From contig JACOSB010000096.1 of assembly GCA_016179105.1 (NCBI GenBank), positions 1 through 45,133 of the forward strand: a DNA stretch of 45,133 bases, given 5' to 3'. Made by a program: the position numbers and the translations under genes. Numbering within the stretch: the stretch's first letter is position 1; every line of letters begins with the position of its first letter. Below, piece by piece: positions 1,346 to 38,123 of this stretch. Under the pieces are notes generated by a model. The model did not search any database and was not told the DNA's origin. It was given only the letters and a program-made list of their open reading frames with translations. The DNA comes from Candidatus Acetothermia bacterium. GTDB lineage: Bacteria; Bipolaricaulota; Bipolaricaulia; RBG-16-55-9; DRXL01.

Positions 1346-1444
1346 ACAAATGGAAACGTGGAGAGAATGCTAGCTTTGAGGCCCCTGTTTGAAGTATGAT
1401 CGAAGTCGTAGCTCGGCCAATTTCTCAAGAGCTCAAGGCCTCGT

Positions 1445-2254
1445 ATGGAAACGAAAAATTATCAACATTTGTTGGTCGATCAAAAGAACGGAGTCGCTCG
1501 CGTCACGCTGAATCGTCCCGACGTGCGCAACGCACTCAACGAAGTGCTCATCGCTGAATTAACAGATTGTTTCAGCAAACTCAGTGCGAATATGAGTGTT
1601 CGCGTGGTCGTCCTTCACGGTGCTGGCCCTGTCTTTTGTGCCGGCGGCGATCTCCACTGGATGCAACGCTCGATCAATTTTTCTCCCGAAGAAAATCGAC
1701 GCGACGCGCGCGGGCTGGCCGAAATGTACCGAGCGATCGACGAATGCGCTCAGCCTTTGATTGCCAGCGTGCACGGAGCTGCCCTCGGCGGTGGCATGGG
1801 CATGTGCTCTGTTTCTGACATCGTTCTGTCGATGCCCGATACACAATTCGGATTCACCGAAGTGAAGTTGGGTATCGTGCCCGCCGTGATCTCTCCGTTT
1901 GTGCTCAAGAAGATTGGAGAAGCCAACGCACGAAGATATTTTCTCACCTCCGAACTTTTCAATGCCGACATCGCAAAGCAAATTGGTTTAGTGCACGAGA
2001 TTCTGCCCGCCGATCAGCTCGACGCGCGCGCCGACACTCTCGCGCAGCAAATTCTAAGCAACGGACCACAAGCTGTTAGAGAAGCAAAAAAGCTCATTCG
2101 TAATGTCATGCAATTGCCATTAGATACAGCGCTCGATCACGCCGTCGAACTGATCGCGCGCCTGCGCACCTCACCCGAAGGCCAAGAAGGGTTACGCGCG
2201 TTCTTGGAAAAACGGCCTCCACGTTGGCGACAACCCTCACAGGAGAGCAAATGA
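1445..2254 (+). CDS. Enoyl-CoA hydratase/isomerase family, probably methylglutaconyl-CoA hydratase
   Basis: This is a crotonase-fold protein of 269 residues, normal for the family. The two oxyanion-hole segments are FCAGGDL (64-70) and ALGGGMG (113-119), and GFTEVKLGIVP (136-146) carries a candidate catalytic Glu139. Crotonases have many substrates. The context (biotin-dependent carboxylase and HMG-CoA lyase genes next in the operon) argues for 3-methylglutaconyl-CoA hydration in leucine breakdown (LiuC role). It is the first gene of the operon, and the biotin carboxylase gene starts 3 bases after its stop. The 111-base gap to the divergent CHAT gene must hold the promoter, but I do not recognise one. 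Confidence 0.85.
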   Translation: METKNYQHLLVDQKNGVARVTLNRPDVRNALNEVLIAELTDCFSKLSANMSVRVVVLHGAGPVFCAGGDLHWMQRSINFSPEENRRDARGLAEMYRAIDECAQPLIASVHGAALGGGMGMCSVSDIVLSMPDTQFGFTEVKLGIVPAVISPFVLKKIGEANARRYFLTSELFNADIAKQIGLVHEILPADQLDARADTLAQQILSNGPQAVREAKKLIRNVMQLPLDTALDHAVELIARLRTSPEGQEGLRAFLEKRPPRWRQPSQESK

Positions 2255-5311: not shown

Positions 5312-6253
5312 ATGAATCTGACCGAACGACTCTTGAATCGGGATCCCAGCGCCCTTGCGAAACTCATTTCTCAAGTAGAAAATCGCGTTCCGGGCTACCC
5401 AGAAATTTTAGATCAAATTTTCTCACACACCGGACACTCTTATCGCATCGGGATCACCGGGCCGCCGGGTGCCGGCAAATCGACTCTGGTCGATAAACTC
5501 GTGCGGCTTTTGCGCGCCGAAGGGAAAACCGTCGGCGTTCTCGCGTGCGATCCAACCAGTCCCTTCACCGGCGGCGCGCTGCTCGGTGATCGCATCCGTA
5601 TGCAAGATTTAGTCTCAGACGACGGCGTTTTCATCCGCAGCATGGCCACCCGCGGAAGCTTGGGAGGACTTGCTAAATCCGCTCAGGAAGCGGCCTTGCT
5701 CTTAGAAGCTTTCGGGTTCGATTGGATTATCTTGGAGACCATTGGCGTGGGCCAAGTCGAAGTGGACATTGTCCAGGCAGCCGACACGACGGTTCTTGTG
5801 TTAGTTCCGCAATCGGGCGACGTCATCCAAGCGATGAAAGCCGGCTTGATGGAAATTGGAGATGTCTTCGTCGTGAACAAATCCGACCAGGGCGAAGCAG
5901 ACCTCGCGTACAGAAATTTACAGACGATGCTCGGTCTCTCGATGCACGAATGGATGCCACCGATCGTGAAGACCGTCGCCTCGCAAAATCAAGGCATCGT
6001 AGAATTGCGCAGCGCGATCGAACGACACAAAGCGTATCAAGAGAAAAATACTCTCTCGCACCGACGACGGGTAAGATTAAAAGCTTTTCTTCAGATGATC
6101 ATCGAAGAGGAGTTACAGCTTCAGCTCTGGCACAGTCAGAGGTTGAAGACTCTCGACGCACAGCTCGAACAGATCTTAAACAAACATCAGACGCCTTATC
6201 GCGCCGCCAAAGAAATCCTGCAAAGCATCAGCAGTTCTTTGCAAAACAATTAA
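5312..6253 (+). CDS. meaB: Methylmalonyl-CoA mutase-associated GTPase MeaB
   Basis: This is a G3E/SIMIBI P-loop GTPase that guards and reloads adenosylcobalamin-dependent acyl-CoA mutases. It has Walker A GPPGAGKST, a switch region with CDPTSPFTGGALLGDRIRM, the ETIGVGQVE segment and the base-recognition NKSD, followed by the C-terminal dimerisation helices. I chose ATG 5312 (MNLTERLL) because AAAGGG lies about 9 bases upstream. An in-frame ATG at 5279 would add 11 unusual residues and has no SD. It lies 71 bases after HMG-CoA lyase and is probably in the same operon. The mutase is not in the window, so the link to propionate or branched-chain catabolism is by context. Confidence 0.92.
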   Translation: MNLTERLLNRDPSALAKLISQVENRVPGYPEILDQIFSHTGHSYRIGITGPPGAGKSTLVDKLVRLLRAEGKTVGVLACDPTSPFTGGALLGDRIRMQDLVSDDGVFIRSMATRGSLGGLAKSAQEAALLLEAFGFDWIILETIGVGQVEVDIVQAADTTVLVLVPQSGDVIQAMKAGLMEIGDVFVVNKSDQGEADLAYRNLQTMLGLSMHEWMPPIVKTVASQNQGIVELRSAIERHKAYQEKNTLSHRRRVRLKAFLQMIIEEELQLQLWHSQRLKTLDAQLEQILNKHQTPYRAAKEILQSISSSLQNN

Positions 6254-6260
6254 ATCTGAC

Positions 6261-7706
6261 CTAGAAGACTACTGCAATCCCAAAAGCCACAGCCTCAATG
6301 GTGTGCGCCCCGACAATCAACGATGTTCTGAAACTCACGTTACCCAGTGTCCAGCTCACATCTCCCCAAAGCTCGGAAAAACCAGAGAGCAGCCCGGACA
6401 TTTTGAGCGTCAAGTCCAAAGTCAGGTGGCCTAAAGCAGCCGAGATAATGATATTGTGCTCCAATACTCCCAAGGTACAAGAAATAAAAAAAAGCGATTC
6501 AGTACAAAGGGTTAAGTCGCTCGTAATTGTTACTCCTAAGGGATCGAATGTCGTGATCAGTTCGGCCAGCTGTGCTTCATAATGACCCACAATCCCCGGA
6601 TAGAAGTACCATATGGCAGTGACGGACATGTCTCCGTACTTGAAGGACGCCGTCAAGAAATCAAAACGCGGATCCAGGCTCCCATCGAGACGAATGGTAT
6701 TGCTGATCATCAATCCACTCCCAAACGGAGTTAGTCGATAGCGCTGACTCCATTCGAGATAGCTCAATCCATTGGCTGAGGGATTTGATTGACCAAATTT
6801 GAACTCGATCCGAACACTGTTATCGACCCCGGCGAAGACCAAGTTGCGAATGAAAATCTTCTCTTCTTCGACGCCAAAGCTCGGAAGAACCTTGCCGCCA
6901 TAGTTGCGCTCGATCGGTTTGCACTCACCCCAACATTCAAGACCTTGCCGCGCTCCCAGCCACGTCTCAGAGCGCAAAGTGATTCCGCTTACGGTCTGGC
7001 CTTCCAATCCGAGGACAATGCCCGTCTGCCAGCTTCTTGTTTGTGTGGTGGGTTGGCCCGCGTTAAAGTTAGCGAAGAGCGCACGCGTGTTGAGCGTCAA
7101 GCCCGCGATGTTGATACTCAGATCGACGATCTTTTTGGATAATTCCAGGGGCGCGTCCAACATACCGAAGGTATCGAAGGTGCTCCCCAGGATCAGGTTG
7201 GCTACCGCCGGATGGAACACTCCAACATCTTCGAGCAAGAAATAGAGCGTATCATCGGCGGCCGGACAATCCAAGAACGGAGGCGTCAAATCACCGGGGG
7301 TGCTGTAATTGATGCAGTAACGGGTAGCGAGTGTAAGGCTGCTCCGAACGTACTCGATCTCGACTAAGTCCGAGGAGAAAACAAACGTATCTCGGAAGGT
7401 CAATGCGCCGATCGTTCCTGCGATGACGAACGTTTGTGATTCGACTCCTTTGAAGGTGAACACCGTCGCCGTCGTCACATCCAGCCCCGAGATGGACAAT
7501 GTCAATAGTAAATCAGCTTCAACCTTCACCCGCGTGTCATCGACCTTGTCGCAAGTTACGGAGTTGTTCGTGATCAAGTTCGCACATAATGGCTGAATTA
7601 CGAGGTCTAGCGTAAAGCTACCCGCAATGGGGGCAGCCGGAGTAGCGTAGGGAAATCCCCCCAGTATCGCAACGATGAAGGCCAGTCTCAAGCACTTCCT
7701 AAACAT
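6261..7706 (-). CDS. Exported beta-rich protein, tandem paralogue 1 of 3
   Basis: I do not recognise a named family. The 481-residue protein has an N-terminal signal peptide ending near ATPAAPIAG and then a long run of alternating hydrophobic/polar strands with no soluble-enzyme motif. It ends in Phe (GIAVVF), as outer-membrane beta-barrels often do. Cysteines sit in blocks shared with the next two genes: PPFLDCP, ARQGLECWGECKP around 250-260, and DLTLCTESLF. Paired cysteines suggest disulfides outside the cytoplasm. The start has AGGGGG upstream. The gene is last of three in a probable operon and ends 7 bases from the convergent meaB stop. An outer-membrane barrel or surface-layer role is inference. 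Confidence 0.8.
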   Translation of the reverse strand: MFRKCLRLAFIVAILGGFPYATPAAPIAGSFTLDLVIQPLCANLITNNSVTCDKVDDTRVKVEADLLLTLSISGLDVTTATVFTFKGVESQTFVIAGTIGALTFRDTFVFSSDLVEIEYVRSSLTLATRYCINYSTPGDLTPPFLDCPAADDTLYFLLEDVGVFHPAVANLILGSTFDTFGMLDAPLELSKKIVDLSINIAGLTLNTRALFANFNAGQPTTQTRSWQTGIVLGLEGQTVSGITLRSETWLGARQGLECWGECKPIERNYGGKVLPSFGVEEEKIFIRNLVFAGVDNSVRIEFKFGQSNPSANGLSYLEWSQRYRLTPFGSGLMISNTIRLDGSLDPRFDFLTASFKYGDMSVTAIWYFYPGIVGHYEAQLAELITTFDPLGVTITSDLTLCTESLFFISCTLGVLEHNIIISAALGHLTLDLTLKMSGLLSGFSELWGDVSWTLGNVSFRTSLIVGAHTIEAVAFGIAVVF

Positions 7707-7746
7707 AGAAATTTACCCCCTGACTGAAGGCACTCTTCGGGCCCAT

Positions 7747-9186
7747 CTAGAACTTCCATATGAAGCTAAAGCTAAGCGCTTTCAGGGCATCTAGACCGAT
7801 GACGTAGCTGTTGGCCAACTCTACTTCCGGAATTAGTTTGTACCTCAGATCAAACCGCGCCTCACTGAAATGGCTTATCAAACCGAGCAAGATCAGCTGG
7901 GCATCGAAGGTGAAGTTTGCCACAGCCGCGGAGATAGATATATCGTGCTCCAGCGTCCCGCTGAGACAAGAACTTACGAAAAGTGTTTCGGTACAAAGCG
8001 TCAAATCGCTGACCGCGGTAATATCAGAAGCTTCAAAGCTGTTGATAAACTCTGCCAATTGCGCTTCCCATGTGTTCGTCAAGGATTGATAAATGTAGAA
8101 AATGGCCGTGCTGGTGAGAGCCCCCATGCGATAACTCACTTGCAGCGTATCGAAGCGTGGGTCCAGCTGACCGTTGAAGCGAATCGTATTGCTCACAGAG
8201 AGCCTGAGCGGCTGAAGCAGAGCGCGTTGATTCCACTCCAGATAAGTGAGTCCCGGCCCGGCATCGCCCGGCTGGGTGAAGAATTGAAACTCTATGCGAA
8301 GAGTGTTGCTCACACCCGCTACCACCAGGTTACGAATGAAAAGCTTTTCTTCTTGGATGGAAAAATCGCTCACGAGGTGTCCGCCATAGACGCGCTCGTT
8401 CGGCTTGCACTCAGCCAAACACTCCAACCCCTGGCGAGCGCCAAACCATGTTTCTGCCCGCACGGTAACCCCACTCACCGTTTGGCCTTCCAGGCTCAAC
8501 ACTGTCCCCATCGCAAAATTTGGGGACTGCGCCGTCCCCAAATTGCCGAACAGCGCGCGAACTCCCAGCACCAGCCCCACGACGTTCAGATTAATGTCAA
8601 CCACTTTCTTCACGAAATAGAGCGGGCCATCGAGGGCTCCTGCGCTGTCGTAGGCAAAAGCTAATCCCAGATTCTGGATGATCGGATGATAGATTCCTGC
8701 ATTCTCGATCAAGAAATACAGATTGCTATCCACTTGGGGGCAGTCGAAAAATGGAGGAGTTATGTCGCCCGGATTCTGATAGGCCACACAGTAGCGCATC
8801 GCGAGCGTGCTGCTGTCGCGAACGATCTCGATCTCTGTGACGCTCGGAGCGAAGACTAACGTTGTCCGTGCCGTCAAGGCTCCGAGCGTAGCCACGACGT
8901 GGAAGACCTGCGCTTCGAGTCCTTTGAACGTGAACGTGGACGCGCTGGTGATGTCTAAACCACTCAACGAGAGCGTCACCACTAGGTCCGCCTCCAGTTT
9001 GAGAAAAACCCCATCCACTTTGCTGCAACCGACAGCAAATGGCCCGGTGAACGTCAGCCTGTTGCAGTCCGGGGTGATCACCAGATCGAGGGTCAAGCTA
9101 CCGCTCAGCGGAGCCGCCGTGCCGGCTACAGAAAAAGCCACGACCAACGATGCTGCCCACACGAAGTACTGCGATTTGCTAAACAT
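7747..9186 (-). CDS. Exported beta-rich protein, tandem paralogue 2 of 3
   Basis: The 479-residue paralogue aligns by eye with its neighbours along the whole length. It has a signal peptide (VAFSVAGTAAPLSG), a SLTLDLVI first strand, LEADLVVTLSLSGLDI, PPFFDCP, ARQGLECLAECKP, EEKLFIRNLV and DLTLCTETLF, and it ends in SFIWKF. A perfect AGGAGG precedes the ATG. The spacing to the downstream paralogue is 40 bases, so co-transcription is likely. Divergence is enough that the triplication is old and not an assembly artefact. Function is unknown; a structural envelope role fits the sequence best. Confidence 0.8.
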   Translation of the reverse strand: MFSKSQYFVWAASLVVAFSVAGTAAPLSGSLTLDLVITPDCNRLTFTGPFAVGCSKVDGVFLKLEADLVVTLSLSGLDITSASTFTFKGLEAQVFHVVATLGALTARTTLVFAPSVTEIEIVRDSSTLAMRYCVAYQNPGDITPPFFDCPQVDSNLYFLIENAGIYHPIIQNLGLAFAYDSAGALDGPLYFVKKVVDINLNVVGLVLGVRALFGNLGTAQSPNFAMGTVLSLEGQTVSGVTVRAETWFGARQGLECLAECKPNERVYGGHLVSDFSIQEEKLFIRNLVVAGVSNTLRIEFQFFTQPGDAGPGLTYLEWNQRALLQPLRLSVSNTIRFNGQLDPRFDTLQVSYRMGALTSTAIFYIYQSLTNTWEAQLAEFINSFEASDITAVSDLTLCTETLFVSSCLSGTLEHDISISAAVANFTFDAQLILLGLISHFSEARFDLRYKLIPEVELANSYVIGLDALKALSFSFIWKF

Positions 9187-9206
9187 CGATCACGACCTCC
9201 TGACCC

Positions 9207-10655
9207 TTAGAATCTGACCGCACTGGACAGCCGCACGACCTCGATGTAATCAGTTTTTAGGACCGCAGAAAGAGCGAAGTCCACATGACCTGTCCTCCAG
9301 GCTACATCCATCCAAAGCTCTGAAAAACCGTTCATCAAGCCAAAAAAGACAGCTTTGCTGTTCAAGACAAAATCTCCGATGACCGTCGACACATAGACGT
9401 CATGTTCGAGAGTGCCTCCGGTACAAAAGCCTACAAAGAGGCTTTCGGTGCAGAGAATCAAATCGCTGGTGAGGGTCACGCCGGGTGGGTCGAGGACGCT
9501 GATGAATTCTGCGAGCTGTCCCTCCCAGACCCCGGATGCCGCAATATAAGAGACCCAAGAGGCGGTGACAGAGACATCGCCAAACTTAAAACTGGCCTGC
9601 AGCAGATCATACCGTGGGTTGAGGTCTGGACCTAAACGGAGGGTGTTGCTGACATTGAGGTTGAGCGGCTGTAAGCGGGCACGTGAATCGATTTGCACAA
9701 ACGTAATACCCGGGTTGGGCGTGCTGGAGCCGGTCTGTGTGAAAAACTGAAACTCTGCGCGGAGATTAAGCATAACACCCGCGAGCACCAGATTGCGTAA
9801 GAAAAGCTTCTCTTCTTGGATGGTGAAGTCTTGCGGAGAAAGCACTTTACCGACGCGATAGATTTCGAGAGGTTTGCACTCTCCGAAGCATTCTAACCCT
9901 TGTCGAGCCCCAATCCAGCTTTCGGCACGCACGGTGATTCCACTGACGGTCTGCCCCTCCAGCGCTACGATCAACCCTGTCACAAACGAGGGCGTCGTGG
10001 AGGTACCTAGGTTCGCGAACAAGGCGCGGGTGCTGATCGTTAGACCCGCGATGCTGAGGCTGATCTCGACGATCTTTTTACGAAAAACCACAGCATCACT
10101 CAGCATCCCGGCGGCATCGAAGAGCGTGGCCAAAACTAGATTTTGATAGGCTGGATGAAATACCCCCACATCCTCAATCAAATCATAGAGCAAGCTATCT
10201 GTCGCAGGGCAATCCAAAAACGGCGGAGTGAGATCACCGGGAGCAGAGAAGTTAATGCAGTAGCGCAGTGAAAGCGTGCTCATGGTACGGACATCTTCAA
10301 TCTCTGTGATGCTCGGGGCGAAGATGAACGTGTCCCTGATTGTGAGAGCTCCTATGGTTGCCGCCAATCTGAACGCCTGAAACTCCAGTCCCTCGAACGT
10401 GAAGACCGTCGTGCTGCCGATCTCGAGCCCACTGATGGTGAGGCGCACGATGAGATCGGCCTCGAACTTCATGATCGTGTCGCTCACTTTGTTGCAGGGC
10501 AGAGTGACGTTGAGCGCATTGAGTGCGCTCACGCAGGTGGGAGCAAAGACGATGTCGACTGAAAAACTGCCGCTGATCGGGGCAGCGCTCAGTGAGGTGA
10601 CCAGCGCGAGGGCGAGAACCGCCACCGCGAGAAACGCAAAAGAACCCCTAGCCAT
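9207..10655 (-). CDS. Exported beta-rich protein, tandem paralogue 3 of 3
   Basis: This is the first gene of the triplet in transcription order. It has a signal peptide (FAFLAVAVLALALVTSLSAAP) and the same blocks as the others: PPFLDCP, ARQGLECFGECKP, EEKLFLRNLVLAGV, DLILCTESLF, and a C-terminal Phe (SSAVRF). Two ATGs lie six bases apart. The first (10661) directly abuts the SD AAGGGGG, while the second (10655) sits at proper spacing, so I use 10655, giving 482 residues. The gap to the next gene is 20 bases. The promoter must lie in the long upstream spacer, but I found no clear -35/-10 pair. Confidence 0.8.
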   Translation of the reverse strand: MARGSFAFLAVAVLALALVTSLSAAPISGSFSVDIVFAPTCVSALNALNVTLPCNKVSDTIMKFEADLIVRLTISGLEIGSTTVFTFEGLEFQAFRLAATIGALTIRDTFIFAPSITEIEDVRTMSTLSLRYCINFSAPGDLTPPFLDCPATDSLLYDLIEDVGVFHPAYQNLVLATLFDAAGMLSDAVVFRKKIVEISLSIAGLTISTRALFANLGTSTTPSFVTGLIVALEGQTVSGITVRAESWIGARQGLECFGECKPLEIYRVGKVLSPQDFTIQEEKLFLRNLVLAGVMLNLRAEFQFFTQTGSSTPNPGITFVQIDSRARLQPLNLNVSNTLRLGPDLNPRYDLLQASFKFGDVSVTASWVSYIAASGVWEGQLAEFISVLDPPGVTLTSDLILCTESLFVGFCTGGTLEHDVYVSTVIGDFVLNSKAVFFGLMNGFSELWMDVAWRTGHVDFALSAVLKTDYIEVVRLSSAVRF

Positions 10656-10661
10656 ACTCAT

Positions 10662-30298: not shown

Positions 30299-31405
30299 TT
30301 AATAGAATTGGCAAACTAAAACCCACATCGACTGACGTGCGGGGGGCGGCGCCATAACGATTCCGAGCGCTGAGGGGACGCAGCCAGGCACTCCGCCCCC
30401 CTGGAAGCCCCACGCAGTGGGGCTAAAGCCAGTAGGTCCACCTCCTGGATCCACTGCACTAGCAGGCCCAGCGACGGCGGGCCCAGCGGCGGGGAGCCCC
30501 AAAGGATCACACCTGGCCTCACCGGTAAATGAATTAGGTGGTGCAGGTGGTACTGGTACTGGCCCACCCCAAATCGCGGTGTTGACCCTGACATTCGCGG
30601 CCGCTAGTGCGCCCGGTGGGAGTACTGCTCCTGGCGGTTGTGGCACCGCTCCTGCCACGCATATGAAAGGTCCAGGTATTAAAACCTGTATGATTGGTGG
30701 AGGTAGAACAGCAGGTGGAACTCCTGCACCGAGTCGTATTAGCCTGAAGCGCGGGGTGGCCACTGGAGGAGCAGCTCGTAACACGATTGGAACTATACTA
30801 TGACATATCAGAGGAATGATCATTAGAGTTCCTCCAAGTACCGGTAGTTCCTTAGGAATGACACCGCTGATGACTCCAACAATGTCGAAACCATCAGAGA
30901 TTCTGAATGTCATCTGAACGGGCACTAGGGCTGGCGACAAAGACGGCAGGTTTTCTTGGCTTATCGCAAGGCGGAAAGAGATCTCCCCATCGCTGTTTTT
31001 GTTCAAGATGACGGAAGCCACAGTACTAGGCTCTAAGCTGAAAGTAATCACGCCGGTCGACGGTCCGCCTATTGTCGGTGGCTTCGGATGGCCCTTGAAG
31101 TTAAGATTGAGAAGTAGTGACGTGTCCGCGGTCGGCAGAAAGATAAACTCCATTGAACCTTCTACTAGTTCATATTTGAGGACCGGATCAAACCCAAAGA
31201 ATTCAGCGAAGTTGTAGTGATCTATAGACGTTGTTAACTCACAAAGAATAAGAGGGGTTGTCGGCTCACTAAAGTGCTCACTCATTCCTTCACTTCTGCT
31301 GTTTCCTGCCTGTGCCAGTTGATCGCCATTACTGACTGAAAGCGCTCCTGCGAGAACGAGCGCTAACAACACCCACTTCCCACCAGCTGCGTTGTTCTTC
31401 AACAT
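30299..31405 (-). CDS. Exported protein of unknown function, Pro/Gly-rich C-terminus
   Basis: I do not recognise a family. The 368-residue protein has a signal peptide (GGKWVLLALVLAGALSVSNG). A beta-rich middle region (about 40-220, with FIFLPTADTSLLLNLNFKG and VPVQMTFRISDGFDIVGVIS) is followed by a Pro/Ala/Gly-rich tail containing several Cys and ending WVLVCQFY. The start is ATG 31405, preceded by GAGGAGGAGG at 6-7 bases; the GTG at 31423 is inside that SD. Upstream is the complete L leader, and downstream is F-repeat copy A. The N-terminal style differs from the other L-preceded gene, so the shared part is the flank and not the protein. Confidence 0.65.
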   Translation of the reverse strand: MLKNNAAGGKWVLLALVLAGALSVSNGDQLAQAGNSRSEGMSEHFSEPTTPLILCELTTSIDHYNFAEFFGFDPVLKYELVEGSMEFIFLPTADTSLLLNLNFKGHPKPPTIGGPSTGVITFSLEPSTVASVILNKNSDGEISFRLAISQENLPSLSPALVPVQMTFRISDGFDIVGVISGVIPKELPVLGGTLMIIPLICHSIVPIVLRAAPPVATPRFRLIRLGAGVPPAVLPPPIIQVLIPGPFICVAGAVPQPPGAVLPPGALAAANVRVNTAIWGGPVPVPPAPPNSFTGEARCDPLGLPAAGPAVAGPASAVDPGGGPTGFSPTAWGFQGGGVPGCVPSALGIVMAPPPARQSMWVLVCQFY

Positions 31406-31427
31406 AGTAAACCTCCTCCTCACGTTG

Positions 31428-31702
31428 GGTACTTATAGAGCGCCCCAGCTCGGCGCTGAATGTGATCGGCTTAAGCGTCTTATTCTTGCTGATCTCACCT
31501 CCTACTGACGTCAAGTATAGACTCTCGATGTCCGATACATGTCCGATGACGAAATCGCATATTGGAAGATGCAAATTAGCTATAACGGACTCGATCACAG
31601 AGACAAAATACCTCCACCTTTAAGATGCATCTGTGCTTAAAGCACCACGCCCTATGGGTTCGTTCAATGAAGTAGGATTTGACACTCAGCCGAGCGGCTT
31701 AA
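31428..31702 (-). repeat. L leader repeat, copy 1 (promoter and 5' untranslated region)
   Basis: About 275 bases, nearly identical to 37572-37867 except for a 20-base indel. It ends about 22 bases before the start of each gene. Shared elements on the minus strand are: a GTGCTTTAAGCAC palindrome (31633-31645), direct repeats of TATCGGACAT type, a TATACT -10-like box (31519-31514), GATCAGCAAGAATAAGA, and the AGCGCC...GGCGCT hairpin with AAGTACC near the gene. No known riboswitch recognised. Confidence 0.85.
31514..31519 (-). promoter_or_regulatory. -10-like TATACT in L leader copy 1
   Basis: TATACT is conserved in both L copies (also 37686-37681). No -35 hexamer is visible at 16-18 bases. Instead a direct repeat (CATCGGACATG, TATCGGACATC) lies there, as expected for an activator-dependent promoter. 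The predicted leader would be about 100 bases. Confidence 0.4.
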
Positions 31703-31831
31703 GCAGGTGAGATGAGGATTACGCTGTGCGCTGTGCCTTGTTGGCGAAGAAGGCATGGGGTCATGATGGCGATTTGTAAAACCATCACAATTATAGTAAA
31801 AGAAGAAAATCTCAAGAGTAGGGAGGGTCTT

Positions 31832-33370
31832 ATGAAATCATCAGCAAGACCGTTAAGACGGGTGCTGTCGTTAGCGATCGCTTTGGCAATCGGTTTGGGA
31901 ATATCTATTGGATGGGCAAGCAGCCCTACGATCTCCGTCAGTCCAAATATCAAAGTCATCAAAGACAACAGTAACGCCCCGTGTCCGGCAGGAACTCTAC
32001 CCGATCCTACCTTTGATTGTAACAATCGTCAGCAAGTCGAGCCTTACCTCGCTGTGGATCCTAAAGACCCCAACATTCTCGTCGCCGGAGCTTTTGATCT
32101 TCGCATGTTAGACAACCGGGCCATTGGCAATTTCTTTGAGAATGGTACTTGGTTTGGCTACTACCGATCCACTGATGGCGGCAAGACGTGGAGTAACTCG
32201 TTCATACCCGGTTTTCCTAAAGATAATTCCCCGGAGGGCAATGCGTCTCCCCTCAAGGGCCTGGGCTCTGACGGAGACTCGATCGTAGTTTTTGATAATT
32301 TGGGCAACGTCTACTACGGAGGATTAGCTTCTTCTCGTCAAGACGATTTCGCGTTCGTCTCAGTCTACAGCGACCATGGAGCCAAGTACGAGCGTACGAC
32401 TCTGGCTTTTGTGATCACGGGTTTCCCCGATAAGCCCTGCATGGTTGTCGATACGACCGGTGGGCCGAATAATGGCAATTTGTACATTGCAGTGACTCGT
32501 TTCGGTGTTGGCTCTACCGGAGCAACGGTTGCGTTTTCGCGCTCCACCGATCATGGGGTGACTTTCTCCCCTCTCCAGACATTGACGGGGGAAAATCCTC
32601 AAGGGTGTGCGCTGGCGGTAGGCCCCAAGGGCGAAGTCTACTTAACATGGCGAGTTTTCTCGGGTGCAGGGGATGTCCTAAAATTGGCGAAGTCCACGGA
32701 TGGAGGCCAGTCCTTCAGTTCGCCGGTATCCGTTCGAGCGATCAACCCGTTCGATCAGGCTCGCACCAACCCAACCACCTTCCGCTCTACGACTTTCCCG
32801 ACCATCGCCGCCGATGACAAAGCAATTTACATCGCATGGCACGATGCGGGCTCGGGCAAAGGCTCTCGCATCGTGATCAGTTGCTCCAGCGATGGAGGGC
32901 AAGGCTGGTCCGCCCCTGTCCAAGTGACGAGCGATGCCCAAAGCGGTCATCAGATCATACCCGCGCTCACGCTTGCCAATGGCAAACTCCGGCTCGCCTG
33001 GTATGATAGCCGCAATGATTCCCAATTTGCTCCCAACCGCTTTATCGGGAACACACTCGATGTTTACTATGCCGAGGCTCCCGCAGGCTGCCCGCTCGCG
33101 TTTCCCGCGACTAGCGTGCGGGTAACCGATAAATCATTCAATCCCAATTTAAGGCACTACGAATTTTTCCGTGAAAACCCGTTCATCGGAGACTACATCG
33201 GGATCGCCTCGGACGGTACGCGGACGCAGGTCATGTGGACCGACAATCGCGACATCACTCCGCAGCAGCCGCCGAACAATGTGCCGTGCGATTTCTTTCG
33301 GCCTGAGCTAAACAATAGCGGTTGCCGCAATCAGAACATCTACATGGCGACCGTGACCTCCAATCCCTGA
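31832..33370 (+). CDS. Exported BNR/Asp-box repeat beta-propeller protein (sialidase-like fold)
   Basis: The 512-residue protein has a signal peptide (LSLAIALAIGLGISIGWAS) and at least four Asp-box motifs: STDGGKTWS, STDHGVTFS, STDGGQSFS and SSDGGQGWS. These mark a sialidase-type propeller. I do not see the FRIP/YRIP arginine motif or a clear catalytic set, so carbohydrate binding or another hydrolase role is as likely as sialidase activity. The start is ATG 31832, with GGGAGGG about 5 bases upstream; upstream in-frame ATGs (31712 and others) lack an SD and encode no signal sequence. It is divergent from the L-preceded gene, so the L region may influence both. Confidence 0.85.
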   Translation: MKSSARPLRRVLSLAIALAIGLGISIGWASSPTISVSPNIKVIKDNSNAPCPAGTLPDPTFDCNNRQQVEPYLAVDPKDPNILVAGAFDLRMLDNRAIGNFFENGTWFGYYRSTDGGKTWSNSFIPGFPKDNSPEGNASPLKGLGSDGDSIVVFDNLGNVYYGGLASSRQDDFAFVSVYSDHGAKYERTTLAFVITGFPDKPCMVVDTTGGPNNGNLYIAVTRFGVGSTGATVAFSRSTDHGVTFSPLQTLTGENPQGCALAVGPKGEVYLTWRVFSGAGDVLKLAKSTDGGQSFSSPVSVRAINPFDQARTNPTTFRSTTFPTIAADDKAIYIAWHDAGSGKGSRIVISCSSDGGQGWSAPVQVTSDAQSGHQIIPALTLANGKLRLAWYDSRNDSQFAPNRFIGNTLDVYYAEAPAGCPLAFPATSVRVTDKSFNPNLRHYEFFRENPFIGDYIGIASDGTRTQVMWTDNRDITPQQPPNNVPCDFFRPELNNSGCRNQNIYMATVTSNP

Positions 33371-33448
33371 AGCTGCGTCTTGCTTGAGCGACCTTCAAGA
33401 GTGGAATGTGTCTGTTTTGGAGGATTCTAGACACATTCCAGAAAAGGC

Positions 33449-33688
33449 ATGAAGTATCAGAAGCAAGGCATCTCCTTTGTCGTCTTCGGCGATCTCTTTT
33501 CGGAAGAGATCAAATTTCTCTCTGCACTTCCTTCGAGCGTAGACCCTTGCGGCGAGAACGGAGAATTTCACTCCTTCGTCTTCGATGGCCCGATTTTCCA
33601 GAAGCCAATCCAATTTGAGAAGGGCGAGATCGTTCTCCGCGACAGTCGCTTCTACTATTGTGATCTGATCCCGAAACCTAGCGAATAA
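33449..33688 (+). CDS. Small hypothetical protein
   Basis: The 79-residue frame starts MKYQKQGISFVVFGDLF and is beta-strand-like, with FHSFVFDGPIFQKPIQFEKG. No family is recognised. AAAAGG lies too close to the ATG for a good SD. The opposite strand also has a 107-codon frame here, but that frame begins inside the F repeat and looks less natural. The stop codon of the plus frame lies in F-repeat copy B. It could be a remnant. Confidence 0.35.
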   Translation: MKYQKQGISFVVFGDLFSEEIKFLSALPSSVDPCGENGEFHSFVFDGPIFQKPIQFEKGEIVLRDSRFYYCDLIPKPSE

Positions 33689-33776
33689 CTCCTGCCTGGG
33701 TGAGACAAGCGAGATCACTGTAGCGGAAGTGCTTCTCGTACCTCGGCTACCTTGTCAGTGACACATTACACCCGAG
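33673..33776. repeat. F repeat, copy B
   Basis: GAAACCTAGCGAATAACTCC, GGGTGAGACAAGCGAGATCAC, then TTCTCGTACCTCGGCTACC and GTGACACATTAC follow the order of copy A with a 13-base deletion. It lies downstream of the large metzincin-like gene, as copy A lies downstream of the 30.3-31.4 kb gene. Confidence 0.8.
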
Positions 33777-33882
33777 AATTGCTCGTTCTCAATAACAAAA
33801 ATCTCCTTAAGCGGCGCTCTCATCATCTGGAGCTATGTCCAACGGTTTTGTTACGCATTCTTGACAGGACTAGAGAATTCCC

Positions 33883-36471
33883 TCACTTGTCTTGTTTGAT
33901 AGCCCTGATGAGTGAGTCAATCAGACACATAAGGACAACAGCGTCTGCTTTGGATATCAAGGGGGAGTTCGTTCTGAATCTGGACTTGATGTCCTCAAGC
34001 ACGAACGTCAGCGCTGATACAGCTGCCTGCGGTTGTTTTTCTGCGATATCAATTAAGCTGATGAGGAAAGACAAGCCGGGCGCGTTTGTAACGACGAACT
34101 TGCGCAGCTCGTCAAACGTTGGGACCCGAAATGTACAATCATGTTCTAAGGTCGCTATCAGTTTCCTCGTTAGGTCGATAATCTCATTGACCAGAGGTAT
34201 CGGCCTTCCCTCGGATTGTATCGTCTTGGCATCGTGGATGAAGAATTCTTCCCCAAGTAGCAGGAAAGGTGCGATATCTTTGCTGAAAACTGTTTCTGTA
34301 AATCCCTCAAACTCTGCCATCTCTTGCGCTAGCTGTCTGCCTCGCGGACCTAACGTCTCTAGCTTCAGTAGCTCTACGATTTTCGCCTTGAGATCGTTGA
34401 AGGGAAAAGCGTTACAACGTGCTAGTTGGAAAATGACAGCGTCTGACGCCTCGGTTCTGTCCACAGCCGTGACAGGACTCACGAACTCCCCAAAGTCAGG
34501 ATTGAAGATAAACGTCTGTTCGCCAAACTTGGGAACCGTGAACTGACCTACGAATGCTCCTGTACCGTCTGTAGGTATGTTAGCTACCAATTCCGTTCCG
34601 AAGAAGATGTCAACAGTGGAATTGGGCAGAAATTCTTTGCCGGTTATAGTGACTGCATCCCCAGGAATTCCCTCGATTGGCTTTATCGTTATCGATTGTG
34701 GTTCAGGGAATTCAGTGATGGAACCGGTGATGATAGGAGCTTGGTCTAACTTGCCCGTGTTGCTGTCAAAGGCGAAACTGGCAACGCGATAACCCTCCGC
34801 CAAGGGCAGTGGCAATCGATCAGCGGGGAGCACAAAGGCCACAACCTCCTCAATAGGGAAACTGGTAGTAGGAACTTGAGTTTTCGATTTACCCTCTGCT
34901 ATCAGTGTCACCAGTTTTGCCTCAATGCGGGAATCGACGATCTCCACAAATCGCCCTGCTTCGAACCGTTTGACGACCGCTGTTACTGAGGGCGTGCCAG
35001 ACACTTTACTCACCGTAATTTCGACAAGTAAGTCGACCCCATGAAAGCCATGGGGAAAGCCCACGTCAGGACTGCCGCCCGTGCCAGCGTTATTATCTAC
35101 ATCCACCATAAATACGTACTTTAATCCCTTGATATCGCCTGGTATTAAGCCCGCCAACTGCATATCCAAAGCTAGCGCGCCATCTGCCTTTCGAACGGCG
35201 GCTGCCTCTGCGATATCGATCCAGACACTAGGTACATCATTTAGGTCATCGACGGAAATCCGGCTCCTCGGCTTCGGATCTAGCAGACGCACTCCATGCT
35301 TGTCCTTGTCGATAGTGCCGGAGATCTTCTGTGCTTCAGCTCGAGCATTAGCGCGCTCTATCGGGTCCAACACGAAATTCCCAAAGCCAGTTACATTCAT
35401 GAGGCGCTGGTCAAGATTCGGGTCCACATGGTTCAGGCACAGAGCGTGACCATCCTCGTGTGCCAGCGTCTCGGGGAAATTGTCGATATTGACGAAAGGG
35501 ATGAACAAGGGCAAATCCAGCGGGTGTGGAAGCGGCACTTTCAGGGTGAATGTGTCTGGATCGTTCGTCGTTGGCTTGGCAGTAGGACGTGGGACAGCCG
35601 TGCAGGGCGGCACCTGCGACCACCCGACATTCCCGGATGGCATCCCAGCGCCATCGACCCATCGTCGAATCAATATGTCAACGAGCTTTTCCGCCGCGTC
35701 CTCACCAATCTTAAGATTGCAAAGGAACTTTACGATGATCCATTCCAACGGATTAATATCAGGATCTAATACATCACCCGGAGCTGATCCAGGGCTAATG
35801 ATCAGATCGGGTACGATCACAGATCCTTGAGGCTTAAAAAGGATCCCCGCCTGAGCAAAGACGAGACTCTTCACCAGGAGTCCGAGCAACCGCTTCGCTC
35901 GGTTGAATCTCCCGTCATTGGGGGCAGGTGTATCCATATTGACCCCGTCGCTCAGAAGACAAAACTTGACGGGCACAATCTTGATTGGCGGACGGCTAGC
36001 AGGGATCTGTTGCGGCGGCGGTGGGTTTTGACCCGGAATCGGCACACCGCCCGATGTCCAAGTTAGACCGATGCGTACGAGGGGCGCGAAATTGCCCGCA
36101 AAATTCACCGCGACCACCGCGCCAGGAGCGACACACGCTACCCCCCAGTTAATCCATACCACGTTGGAGCCAGCCTGCGCGGCCACCGGTGCCGGACAAC
36201 CCAGTGGATTGGCTGTCACCACTAGGTTTGCCAAAGTTCCACCGGTCCCAGCGTATTCGACGCATACGTCGCTAGCCGCAACACTCGTACCGTTGACATA
36301 CACATCAGCGAACCCGAGAGTGCGAGGACCAGCCCCAAGAGCTGCCGGTGGACATGGAAGCTGCGTGTTGGCCAGCAGGACACCGTTCATGGAGTAGTTT
36401 GCCTTTCCCAAAGCAAAAAAGCTTGCGATCATAGTGAGCATAAATAGAAACTTGCAGAGCTTAGCACTCAT
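33883..36471 (-). CDS. Large exported metzincin-like protein with IPT/TIG domain
   Basis: The 862-residue protein has a signal peptide (FLFMLTMIASFFALGKA) and a Cys-containing beta N-domain to about 150. The peptidase-like region has the zinc motif HEDGHALCLNH: His338, Glu339, His342, His348, with Cys345 in place of the usual Gly. The Met-turn is QRLMN (Met358). A region with DVNNNAGTGG-like loops follows, then an IPT/TIG domain near 595-680 (PIEGIPGDAVTITGKEFLP). The helical C-terminal 180 residues are unrecognised. AGAGGAGG precedes the ATG. A hairpin (36541-36561) and an L fragment (36697-36730) lie in the leader. It is likely a secreted or surface protease; activity with Cys at that site is uncertain. 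Confidence 0.75.
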   Translation of the reverse strand: MSAKLCKFLFMLTMIASFFALGKANYSMNGVLLANTQLPCPPAALGAGPRTLGFADVYVNGTSVAASDVCVEYAGTGGTLANLVVTANPLGCPAPVAAQAGSNVVWINWGVACVAPGAVVAVNFAGNFAPLVRIGLTWTSGGVPIPGQNPPPPQQIPASRPPIKIVPVKFCLLSDGVNMDTPAPNDGRFNRAKRLLGLLVKSLVFAQAGILFKPQGSVIVPDLIISPGSAPGDVLDPDINPLEWIIVKFLCNLKIGEDAAEKLVDILIRRWVDGAGMPSGNVGWSQVPPCTAVPRPTAKPTTNDPDTFTLKVPLPHPLDLPLFIPFVNIDNFPETLAHEDGHALCLNHVDPNLDQRLMNVTGFGNFVLDPIERANARAEAQKISGTIDKDKHGVRLLDPKPRSRISVDDLNDVPSVWIDIAEAAAVRKADGALALDMQLAGLIPGDIKGLKYVFMVDVDNNAGTGGSPDVGFPHGFHGVDLLVEITVSKVSGTPSVTAVVKRFEAGRFVEIVDSRIEAKLVTLIAEGKSKTQVPTTSFPIEEVVAFVLPADRLPLPLAEGYRVASFAFDSNTGKLDQAPIITGSITEFPEPQSITIKPIEGIPGDAVTITGKEFLPNSTVDIFFGTELVANIPTDGTGAFVGQFTVPKFGEQTFIFNPDFGEFVSPVTAVDRTEASDAVIFQLARCNAFPFNDLKAKIVELLKLETLGPRGRQLAQEMAEFEGFTETVFSKDIAPFLLLGEEFFIHDAKTIQSEGRPIPLVNEIIDLTRKLIATLEHDCTFRVPTFDELRKFVVTNAPGLSFLISLIDIAEKQPQAAVSALTFVLEDIKSRFRTNSPLISKADAVVLMCLIDSLIRAIKQDK

Positions 36472-36837
36472 AAATTCCTCCTCTTTTCTTCCGGCCTAGC
36501 AACCTCCGGTAAGCAGATCGGTAGCACTGGAAAATTCCTTGGACCTACTATCTGTAGGTCCCGAGTCCCAATCTTTCTTTGCCCTCAAGACCAAAAGTCC
36601 TAAACAATTACTACTTTCACTGCTGCTATAGATGAAATACGAAAGCCCCGGTCGGCAAGTTTCCCAAATAGCATTTGTGCCTCTTTCTTAAGTTTGGTAC
36701 TTCTATAGCGCTTCAGCTCGGCGCTGTATTCTGACGATTCCACCCCCCTTGCTTCTTTCTGCTACAGCATCCTTTCGTTGGTTATCCGTAACGCTTTCCG
36801 TTCGGTTCATCCAGACTATCGGCTGGAGTTCGATTCT
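36472..36837. other. Spacer with hairpin and L-leader fragment
   Basis: GGACCTAC (36541-36548) and GTAGGTCC (36554-36561) form a perfect 8-bp hairpin in the leader of the large metzincin-like gene. At 36697-36730 a 34-base fragment matches the gene-proximal part of the L leader, including AGCGC and GCGCT arms and the GGTACTT end. It sits 226 bases from the gene instead of about 22. CCAG/CTGG near 36810-36826 may be part of a terminator for the upstream gene. Confidence 0.55.
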
Positions 36838-37551
36838 TTAGATGTTATCTTCAGAGAAGCAGAACGGAAAAGGTGGAAACGCTGGTCCACCCAACAAGAC
36901 AACCGCGACATCGAAATCCCCTGGGGGGACTGGGATCGGCGCTGGTAGCGTCACAGAGTGAATGAGCGTGAGAGGCGGCGTAAAATCGAATCCTATAGAC
37001 GGCGGGAACGGAGCCACATGGACGAAAATCAGTAGAGAAGGATTGAGATGCCAACCCTGCAAGGTAGCGGCTTGTTCCGGGCCAAATCCGGGCGGGTCGA
37101 GAATAAAAACGAACAAGATTAAGGGGCCAGTCACAGGTGCCGTGCAGAACAGCAAGGGATCGCCGGGTTCACCCTTGACCTCTTTTTCGAGGAGCTCAAC
37201 CTTATTCGCTTTCGCACAATCCCTGAGTGGTTGCAGGAGATTCCGCTCGACACCTTCCCTATCCTTTATAGTCTGATCCTTTATAGCCTGCTGGATAGCT
37301 ATTGTCTGTTTGTGCGCGACTTCCTCGCACGGATTGTGAGGTTTTTCCTTCTGTTGGTCCGTTCCGATGACGCTCCCGATGCTTTCTCCGCTGACTTGAG
37401 AGAGGCTATTGGTATGAGAGCTGGGCGCGATCGCTTGTTGTGCTATCCCCGATAGACCGAACAAGATCAAAGTTCCGATCAAGCTCAAGACTCCAACTCT
37501 GAAAAGGCGCCCAAGAACCTGTTCTACTTTGAACACGACTCTATTAAACAT
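36838..37551 (-). CDS. Exported or membrane-anchored protein of unknown function
   Basis: The 237-residue protein has one N-terminal hydrophobic segment (VGVLSLIGTLILFGLSGIAQ) acting as signal or anchor. A charged helical stretch follows (about 68-130, HKQTIAIQQAIKDQTIKD, with Cys residues). The C-terminal half is Pro-rich and beta-like, with runs such as GPLILFVFILDPPGF and PAPIPVPPGDFDVAVVLLGG. No family is recognised, and it is not evidently related to the 30.3-31.4 kb product. TAGGAGG precedes the ATG. The full L leader copy 2 begins 21 bases upstream. The downstream neighbour on the same strand is the metzincin-like gene. Confidence 0.6.
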   Translation of the reverse strand: MFNRVVFKVEQVLGRLFRVGVLSLIGTLILFGLSGIAQQAIAPSSHTNSLSQVSGESIGSVIGTDQQKEKPHNPCEEVAHKQTIAIQQAIKDQTIKDREGVERNLLQPLRDCAKANKVELLEKEVKGEPGDPLLFCTAPVTGPLILFVFILDPPGFGPEQAATLQGWHLNPSLLIFVHVAPFPPSIGFDFTPPLTLIHSVTLPAPIPVPPGDFDVAVVLLGGPAFPPFPFCFSEDNI

Positions 37552-37571
37552 AGTGAACCTCCTATACTTTT

Positions 37572-37867
37572 GGTACTTTTTGAGCGCCCCAGCTCGGCGC
37601 TGTATGCGATCGGCTTAAGCATCTTATTCTTGCTGATCTCACCCCCCGAGCGTTTGAGATTTCGTTTCGCTGTTCAGCCAAGTATAGACTCTCGATGTCC
37701 TATACATGTGCGATGACGAAATCGCATAGTGGACGATGCAAATTAGCTGTAATGGACTCGGCCACAGAGACAAAATACCTCCGCCTCAAGATGCAGTTGT
37801 GCTTAAAGCACCACGCCCTAGGGTACCGTTCAATGAACTAGGATTTGATACTCAGCCGAGCGGCTTA
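37572..37867 (-). repeat. L leader repeat, copy 2
   Basis: It carries the same elements as copy 1: GTGCTTTAAGCAC palindrome (37799-37811), TATACT (37686-37681), GATCAGCAAGAATAAGA, and the AGCGCC/GGCGCT hairpin next to AAGTACC. Compared with copy 1 it carries about 20 extra bases near 37650-37675. It ends with AGCCGAGCGGCTTA, as copy 1 does. Confidence 0.85.
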
Positions 37868-38123
37868 TATAGGCAGATGGGCTCCGCCTTAGATTAGTAT
37901 CTCCGAGCTGGGTACTAAAGAAAGGTATTTCTGACCTCTATAGGTCGCTAACAATGACCGCTTGCACTGCAACTACATTATACACCCACTACCCCCAGAG
38001 AGTAGCCGTAATCCCTGACCCACAGGGGCAAAAGGGGGGACTTAACACGCATAAACGACAGGACAAAAGCTCGCAATCGACGCGAGCAGCGCTCACGCAA
38101 CCACGTTGCGCCCTCATCCTAAA
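37868..38123. other. Spacer between L copy 2 and the tricorn promoter
   Basis: No gene. A small GACCT-CTAT-AGGTC hairpin lies near 37935-37950. GAGCTGGGTACT near 37903 faintly resembles the gene-proximal L element. Nothing else is recognised. Confidence 0.35.

Follow-up and report, generated by a model that had tools for sequence, protein, structure and literature searches.

A sequence of about 30 nucleotides, here called element B, recurs shortly before the start codons of many unrelated genes, mostly for exported proteins, in a Candidatus Acetothermia bacterium and in several archaeal lineages. Judging from its sequence and place, we give a probability of roughly 0.6 that it is an element of the 5′ untranslated region (5′-UTR) acting on translation or mRNA stability. 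The element was met in a 45,133-nucleotide contig of this bacterium (Bipolaricaulota; JACOSB010000096.1, positions 1 to 45,133, assembly GCA_016179105.1), hereafter the window, where a first-pass annotation had described a 275-base leader, L, duplicated upstream of two genes for dissimilar exported proteins. L is made of two separable control elements, B next to the gene and element A further upstream, plus duplicated filler. Element B, rather than the L pair, is the real find.

Element B is anchored to the start codons of unrelated genes

In this genome, element B reads AGCGCC-N7-GGCGCU-N4-AARUACC and ends 20-odd nucleotides before the start codon. A covariance model detected 11 copies with E ≤ 1.3e-4 and no further match up to E ~1, while the reversed pattern gave no match in any of 60 genomes. 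Two further genera of the family hold one copy each (G004, G009); weak matches in G032, G047, G139 and G148 were regarded as chance or set aside. Sequence outside B is not common to most copies of this genome. The open reading frames (ORFs) behind them look exported, with Sec-like or Tat-like signals, except for mini-ORFs of 24 and 31 aa. The shorter of these stands behind the third copy in the window (Table 1), a fragment of L that had been annotated as lying upstream of a third exported gene. The fragment is real (36696–36724), but the start codon behind it opens the mini-ORF, and the exported gene begins only further downstream.

Position was analysed on 122 non-redundant copies of B. A start codon lies 24–90 nt past the hairpin in 117 of them (median 37 nt, interquartile range 34–41), and a Shine-Dalgarno (SD) sequence is present in 95 of these 117. 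In copies that also bear element A, the distance from B to the start codon is 31–33 nt, while that from the –10 box of A to B is 34, 56 or 79 nt. Because B keeps its spacing to the start codon and not to the –10 box, it would act at the mRNA level. One further copy (C143) lies 34 nt past the stop codon of a co-directional gene. This intercistronic copy, the position of the SD and the presence of upstream promoters suggest, indirectly, that B would lie within the transcript. Its fixed spacing to the SD and start codon, on the same strand and before many unrelated genes, fits a cis-regulatory mRNA leader element.

The genes behind B have export in common rather than homology. By a hydropathy rule, a signal peptide or N-terminal anchor was called in 81 of the 117 proteins behind B, as compared to 47 of 159 control ORFs from the same loci. 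After removal of signal peptides, 109 proteins behind B fell into 49 unrelated groups, mostly exported. The exceptions without such a call are mostly Borrarchaeum enzymes (ATC_hydrolase-like, Oxidored_FMN, DUF3237, DUF3303), together with a papain-family protease.

Two loci of the Acetothermia genome may be described here. On C143 (L212, 5735–5930), the second of the two mini-ORFs stands behind B; it encodes a hydrophobic peptide of 31 aa, and a terminator-like hairpin, AAGGGGCTTAAGCCCCTTGTTTT, comes after it. On C43 (L209, 2759–3685), the protein encoded behind B has a Tat-like signal and is rich in cysteine at its C-terminus; there is no Pfam match, and we presume a resemblance of this C-terminus to halocin C8-like domains.

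Element B recurs in archaea

An exact-pattern scan for B over 84,980 species returned 43 stretches with 48 distinct hits, as compared to about 1–8 expected from base composition. Almost all stretches are archaeal, from Methanophagales (ANME-1), Methanosarcinales records including GoM-Arc1, Methanolliviera, Hadesarchaea, Borrarchaeum and a Methanothrix bin; the non-archaeal ones are Acetothermia and one Aminicenantes. Records of WOR-3 (L103) and Nitrosotalea (L074) are possibly mis-binned archaeal contigs and were left out of the lineage count. A match in Pantoea (L066) was treated as chance, and the two matches in the viral collection were both chance-like, with no SD behind either.

The hits resemble each other beyond the pattern used to find them. 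The five loop positions left free in the pattern are GAGGA in nearly all hits, at 1.4–1.7 bits each (the archaeal loop being GAGGAGG), and the bases directly 3′ of the pattern are C-A-A. Chance would not give this conservation. Covariance models detected B in 46 of 197 relatives of an ANME-1 genome, with up to 17 copies per genome, and in 6 of 196 relatives of a Borrarchaeum genome. Variants with about 2–3 extra nucleotides in the linker (GGCGCAAUGAUAGAAGUACCC) retain the loop and the tail; those of other Borrarchaeum relatives again precede exported proteins. Several genomes (G154–G158, G163) hold only a single copy.

B probably spread between remote lineages by horizontal transfer. The Aminicenantes gene behind B is 44% identical to an ANME-1 gene behind B, so that gene and element may have moved together. 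No comparable archaeal relatives of the window proteins were found among the genes behind B.

Other arrangements were seen around archaeal copies. In Borrarchaeum (L070, L082, L090), ATC_hydrolase-like genes form tandem arrays, each gene with its own B, and poly-T runs stand shortly before some of the hairpins. ANME-1 leaders (L069, L073, L077, L092, L097) carry other recurrent modules upstream of B, namely a tRNA T-arm plus acceptor-like module (CATGGTGCAAGTCCATGgAGGGGC), a GATGCAC...GTGCATC module with an inner GCCTTCGGG hairpin, and a CATCC...GGATG hairpin. Together with B, these modules possibly make up a family of modular leaders.

Leader L combines element B with a probable promoter element, A

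The duplication of L is real and far above chance. When the genome was searched with the 275 bases, the region 37572–37867 was recovered besides the query itself (83%, E = 5e-85). In the homologous block, 261 of 299 aligned bases are identical (87%), with a 23-nt indel immediately after the TATACT box; the copies had been described as matching almost base for base apart from a 20-base indel, which is right as to homology and overstates the likeness. L does lie upstream of exported-protein genes, as annotated; no strand had been given, and since the two genes run from 31405 to 30299 and from 37551 to 36838, L is on the minus strand. Homology extends across the SD and the start codon (ATGTT) and ends there. 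The two proteins were confirmed to be unrelated (best BLASTP E = 0.98 over 9 residues, no Pfam family).

Both copies contain the motifs first listed for them: the GTGCTTTAAGCAC palindrome, the TATCGGACAT-type repeats, the TATACT box and the AGCGCC/GGCGCT hairpin with AAGTACC. The same search gave short partial matches on other contigs, which sort into two groups, one corresponding to the gene-proximal end (element B) and the other to the TATCGGACAT repeats with TATACT (element A). A occurs without B on C75 and C131, and B without A on C143, C99, C43, C94, C144, C120 and C68; the two stand together on C134 and twice in the window. Thus further copies exist for the parts, with B at 11 places and A at 3–4 others, and the full 275 bases have none in the genome beyond the window pair. 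L had no match in Rfam. As a whole, the pair looks like an ordinary duplicated promoter/leader containing two widespread elements.

Element A, CGGACAT-N4-CGGACAT-N8-TATACT, is probably an activator-dependent promoter. A search pattern derived from the first copy matched 6 places in the genome within 3 mismatches, and its reverse none. Direct repeats of this type with an 11-bp period are present in both L copies, on C75 and on C134; on C131 the first repeat is weaker. In the matches to this pattern, built on the first copy, the 3′ repeat stands 8 bp from TATACT, TATAAT or TACACT. Targets of SARP regulators carry direct repeats at 11 bp, the 3′ repeat being 8 bp from the –10 box (PMC10936776), and SARP operators consist of heptamers with 4-bp spacers (PMC5930380). 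The genome encodes 41 BTAD domains, as compared to 0–5 in other members of the family. On C134, an AfsR-type regulator (Trans_reg_C, BTAD, AAA_16, TPR) ends 94 bp upstream of the A box, which is followed by B and by an exported protein; BTAD genes also adjoin genes behind B on C120, C68 and G004:C59. The repeat geometry, the number of BTAD domains and the AfsR-type or BTAD genes adjoining the targets make a SARP-type promoter likely at A. An AfsR-type SARP regulator very likely reads it, its predicted binding to the two CGGACAT repeats replacing a –35 box. The proposal of a shared regulator is thereby supported for the promoter part of L.

Element A without B also precedes a 2163-aa exported protein that appears RHS/YD-repeat-like by eye (L214). 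Contigs C99 and C75 have a common end of >130 bases (L004 1–135 and the end of L005); since they share this end, the A promoter of C75 and the B gene of C99 are probably neighbours.

Interpretation of element B

If transcribed and folded, B would form a 6-bp GC hairpin with a 7-nt loop and an A-rich tail ending in UACC, just upstream of the SD in the mRNA. Its most likely action is post-transcriptional, a tuning of how readily ribosomes load or how stable the mRNA is for genes that mainly encode exported proteins; a partner specific for the sequence, from the ribosome or among RNA-binding proteins, may read it. Because archaea and bacteria share SD-type initiation and ribosomes but not promoters, the ribosome or the mRNA is the level at which B would be expected to work. 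More tentative, and in our estimate somewhat short of even odds, is the wider proposal of an RNA element of archaea and bacteria through which a common factor, ribosomal or horizontally spread, would give post-transcriptional control of exported proteins and so mark part of the secretome.

Several observations weigh against a 5′-UTR element. In the covariation test suggested with the first-pass idea of a new structured RNA, the stem barely varied, with 94% of cells paired, and covariation was not above that of shuffled controls, which gave equal values. Changes in the stem amount to one two-sided replacement of G-C by A-U and, over the five inner pairs, to 13 G-U against 9 broken cells. Minimum-energy folds of 91-nt leaders were no better than those of shuffles. 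A handful of copies have no tail, the archaeal tail (TTTATAAATA) resembles a TATA box in about 40% of copies, and the hydropathy rule behind the signal-peptide calls is a crude one. Of the structured RNA, what stands is a conserved hairpin and tail of 30 nt, anchored to start codons in many genomes and without a match in Rfam, either at the gathering threshold (B in the window and 17 archaeal loci) or in a permissive scan of the leader; its fold is plausible, though unproven by covariation.

The TATA-like tails, the GC inverted repeat (GCGCC/GGCGC) and the covariation no higher than in shuffles would all suit an operator in DNA, bound by a transcription factor and joined in archaea to a TATA box. 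We consider this unlikely. With 37 nt between hairpin and start codon and an SD in 95 of 117 copies, transcription from a TATA box at the tail would begin no earlier than the SD; as the SD lies after B, such transcripts would lose it, which argues against B being an archaeal promoter. Moreover, C and G are interchangeable at tail position 4, unlike in a TATA box, and archaea show a separate TATA-like peak about 80 nt upstream of B (24 of 101 copies). The bacterial copies bearing A have their own upstream –10 box at variable distance, and the tail does not conform to a –10 box. Finally, one operator would need to serve two unrelated promoter systems.

An improbable reading, although a likely one for the pair itself, is that a promoter region was recently duplicated as a segment within the window and that nothing more lies behind the finding. 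The full 275 bases occur nowhere else in the genome, and identity between the copies is 94% in A and 94% in B as compared to 89% upstream and 78% between. L outside the two elements is thus nearly as conserved as the elements. Duplication leaves unexplained A at 3–4 and B at 8 other places before unrelated genes, and B in archaea. For B, duplication is refuted by the copies lacking surrounding homology; for the rest of L it stands.

Even less probable is a small-molecule riboswitch with a pseudoknot between loop GG and tail CC, similar to the preQ1-I class in size and place. B has the appropriate length of about 30 nt, an A-rich tail and an adjoining SD, and in two copies (L189, L191) both sides of the pseudoknot pair are changed to A-U. 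Of the 23 variants in which a base is changed, however, most break the pair, and shuffles reach the observed loop-tail values. Apart from export, no metabolic theme unites the genes, and in Borrarchaeum B precedes genes for cytosolic enzymes. As to the first-pass suggestion of a cassette system swapping secreted proteins behind one leader, with B as recombination site, the end of L homology at the start codon before unrelated genes agrees with it, but B is asymmetric, tied to the SD and start codon, present as one copy only in several genomes and without flanking sequence common to most copies of its own genome, which makes such a system scarcely credible.

Other candidates were rejected. An intrinsic terminator or attenuator does not fit a hairpin followed by a NUANAARUACC-type tail with no U run, and a bacterial –10 box or archaeal TATA box at the tail was discarded because of its position. 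A CsrA-type GGA occurs in the archaeal loop, yet not in most loops of the Acetothermia genome; likewise, the sequence by which the loop could act as an SD decoy is missing from most of these loops. An upstream mini-ORF, seen in AUGA-containing linker variants, is not general.

Other features of the window

Next to L copy 2 lies element C, a 190-nt repeat with GTGTCAAG, GTATAAT and a conserved GCTCGGAGAT...AAGGCGGAGCCCACCTGCC block, which precedes B genes twice and a BTAD regulator once. It was also seen at about 5490–5680 (–) of L211 and about 1400–1590 (+) of L031. Element C looks like a promoter plus a small RNA; from its appearance 6S RNA was suspected, which has no support in Rfam, where element C had no match. 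The window also encodes, at 6261–10661 (–), three exported proteins of some 480 aa in a tandem row; judged by eye they resemble one another, and neither B nor A accompanies them.

Table 1. Coordinates of the features in the window.
Feature	Position	Strand	Basis
Leader L copy 1 (entire duplicated promoter/leader block)	31401..31701	-	within-genome search, alignment
Leader L copy 2	37545..37867	-	within-genome search, alignment
Element B copy 1: AGCGCC-GAGCTGG-GGCGCT + CTAT + AAGTACC, 22 nt before start codon	31428..31457	-	
Element B copy 2: AGCGCC-GAGCTGG-GGCGCT + CAAA + AAGTACC, 20 nt before start codon	37572..37601	-	
Element B copy 3: loop GAGCTGA, closing C-A mismatch, 2 mismatches to hairpin/AAGTACC core	36696..36725	-	
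Element A copy 1: TCGGACATGTATCGGACAT-N8-TATACT, SARP-type direct repeats 8 bp before –10 box; predicted transcription start near 31507	31514..31546	-	
Element A copy 2: 2 mismatches to copy 1; predicted transcription start near 37674	37681..37713	-	
GTGCTTTAAGCAC palindrome copy 1, upstream of element A	31633..31645	.	direct reading, alignment
GTGCTTTAAGCAC palindrome copy 2	37799..37811	.	direct reading, alignment
Exported protein, 368 aa, behind L copy 1; no Pfam family	30299..31405	-	ORF reading, Pfam
Exported protein, 237 aa, behind L copy 2; no Pfam family, unrelated to the 368-aa protein	36838..37551	-	ORF reading, Pfam, BLASTP
ORF of 24 aa directly behind B copy 3	36600..36674	-	
Exported protein, 862 aa, ~220 nt downstream of B copy 3	33883..36471	-	ORF reading, Pfam search
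Element C: upstream repeat with GTGTATAATG box, common to C144 (before another B gene) and C120 (before BTAD regulator preceding B gene)	37872..38064	-	

Comparison with known systems

Element A is like the operators of SARP/AfsR regulators (afs box) in its direct repeats with an 11-bp period, in the 8 bp between the 3′ repeat and the –10 box and in the adjacent AfsR-type genes. It differs in its heptamer, CGGACAT, in its predicted targets, which are exported proteins and not antibiotic genes, and in belonging to a phylum far from Streptomyces.

A leader element usually serves a single gene or pathway and belongs to a single domain of life. In contrast, B is one 30-nt sequence found before 49 unrelated, chiefly exported, protein groups in ANME-1, Asgard, Hadesarchaea and Bipolaricaulota. 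The preQ1-I riboswitch, a tiny hairpin with an A-rich tail directly before the SD, is alike in these three respects; B differs from it in sequence, in having no common pathway downstream, in its unsupported pseudoknot and in being negative in Rfam. The leader hairpin of E. coli ompA, a 5′-UTR stabiliser, is likewise a stem-loop upstream of the SD in the mRNA of an exported protein. To our knowledge, such stabilisers show no sequence conservation between genes, whereas B is one sequence before many unrelated genes in two domains. Among archaea, conserved structured leaders have been described as 5′-UTR-derived RNAs of Pyrococcus abyssi, some riboswitch-like and some with K-turns (PMC3124441). 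In the parts of that study consulted, these are separate RNAs at particular loci, with no common hairpin before many genes (PMC3124441).

We found no description of B in the searchable literature; it was probably overlooked because its carriers are uncultured species. Its presence at the same place in bacteria and archaea points to an undescribed control element on mRNA in both domains of life. If B indeed acts on mRNA, it would offer a handle on cell-surface control in uncultured methane-oxidising archaea, and a test case for a translation signal read by archaeal and bacterial ribosomes alike.

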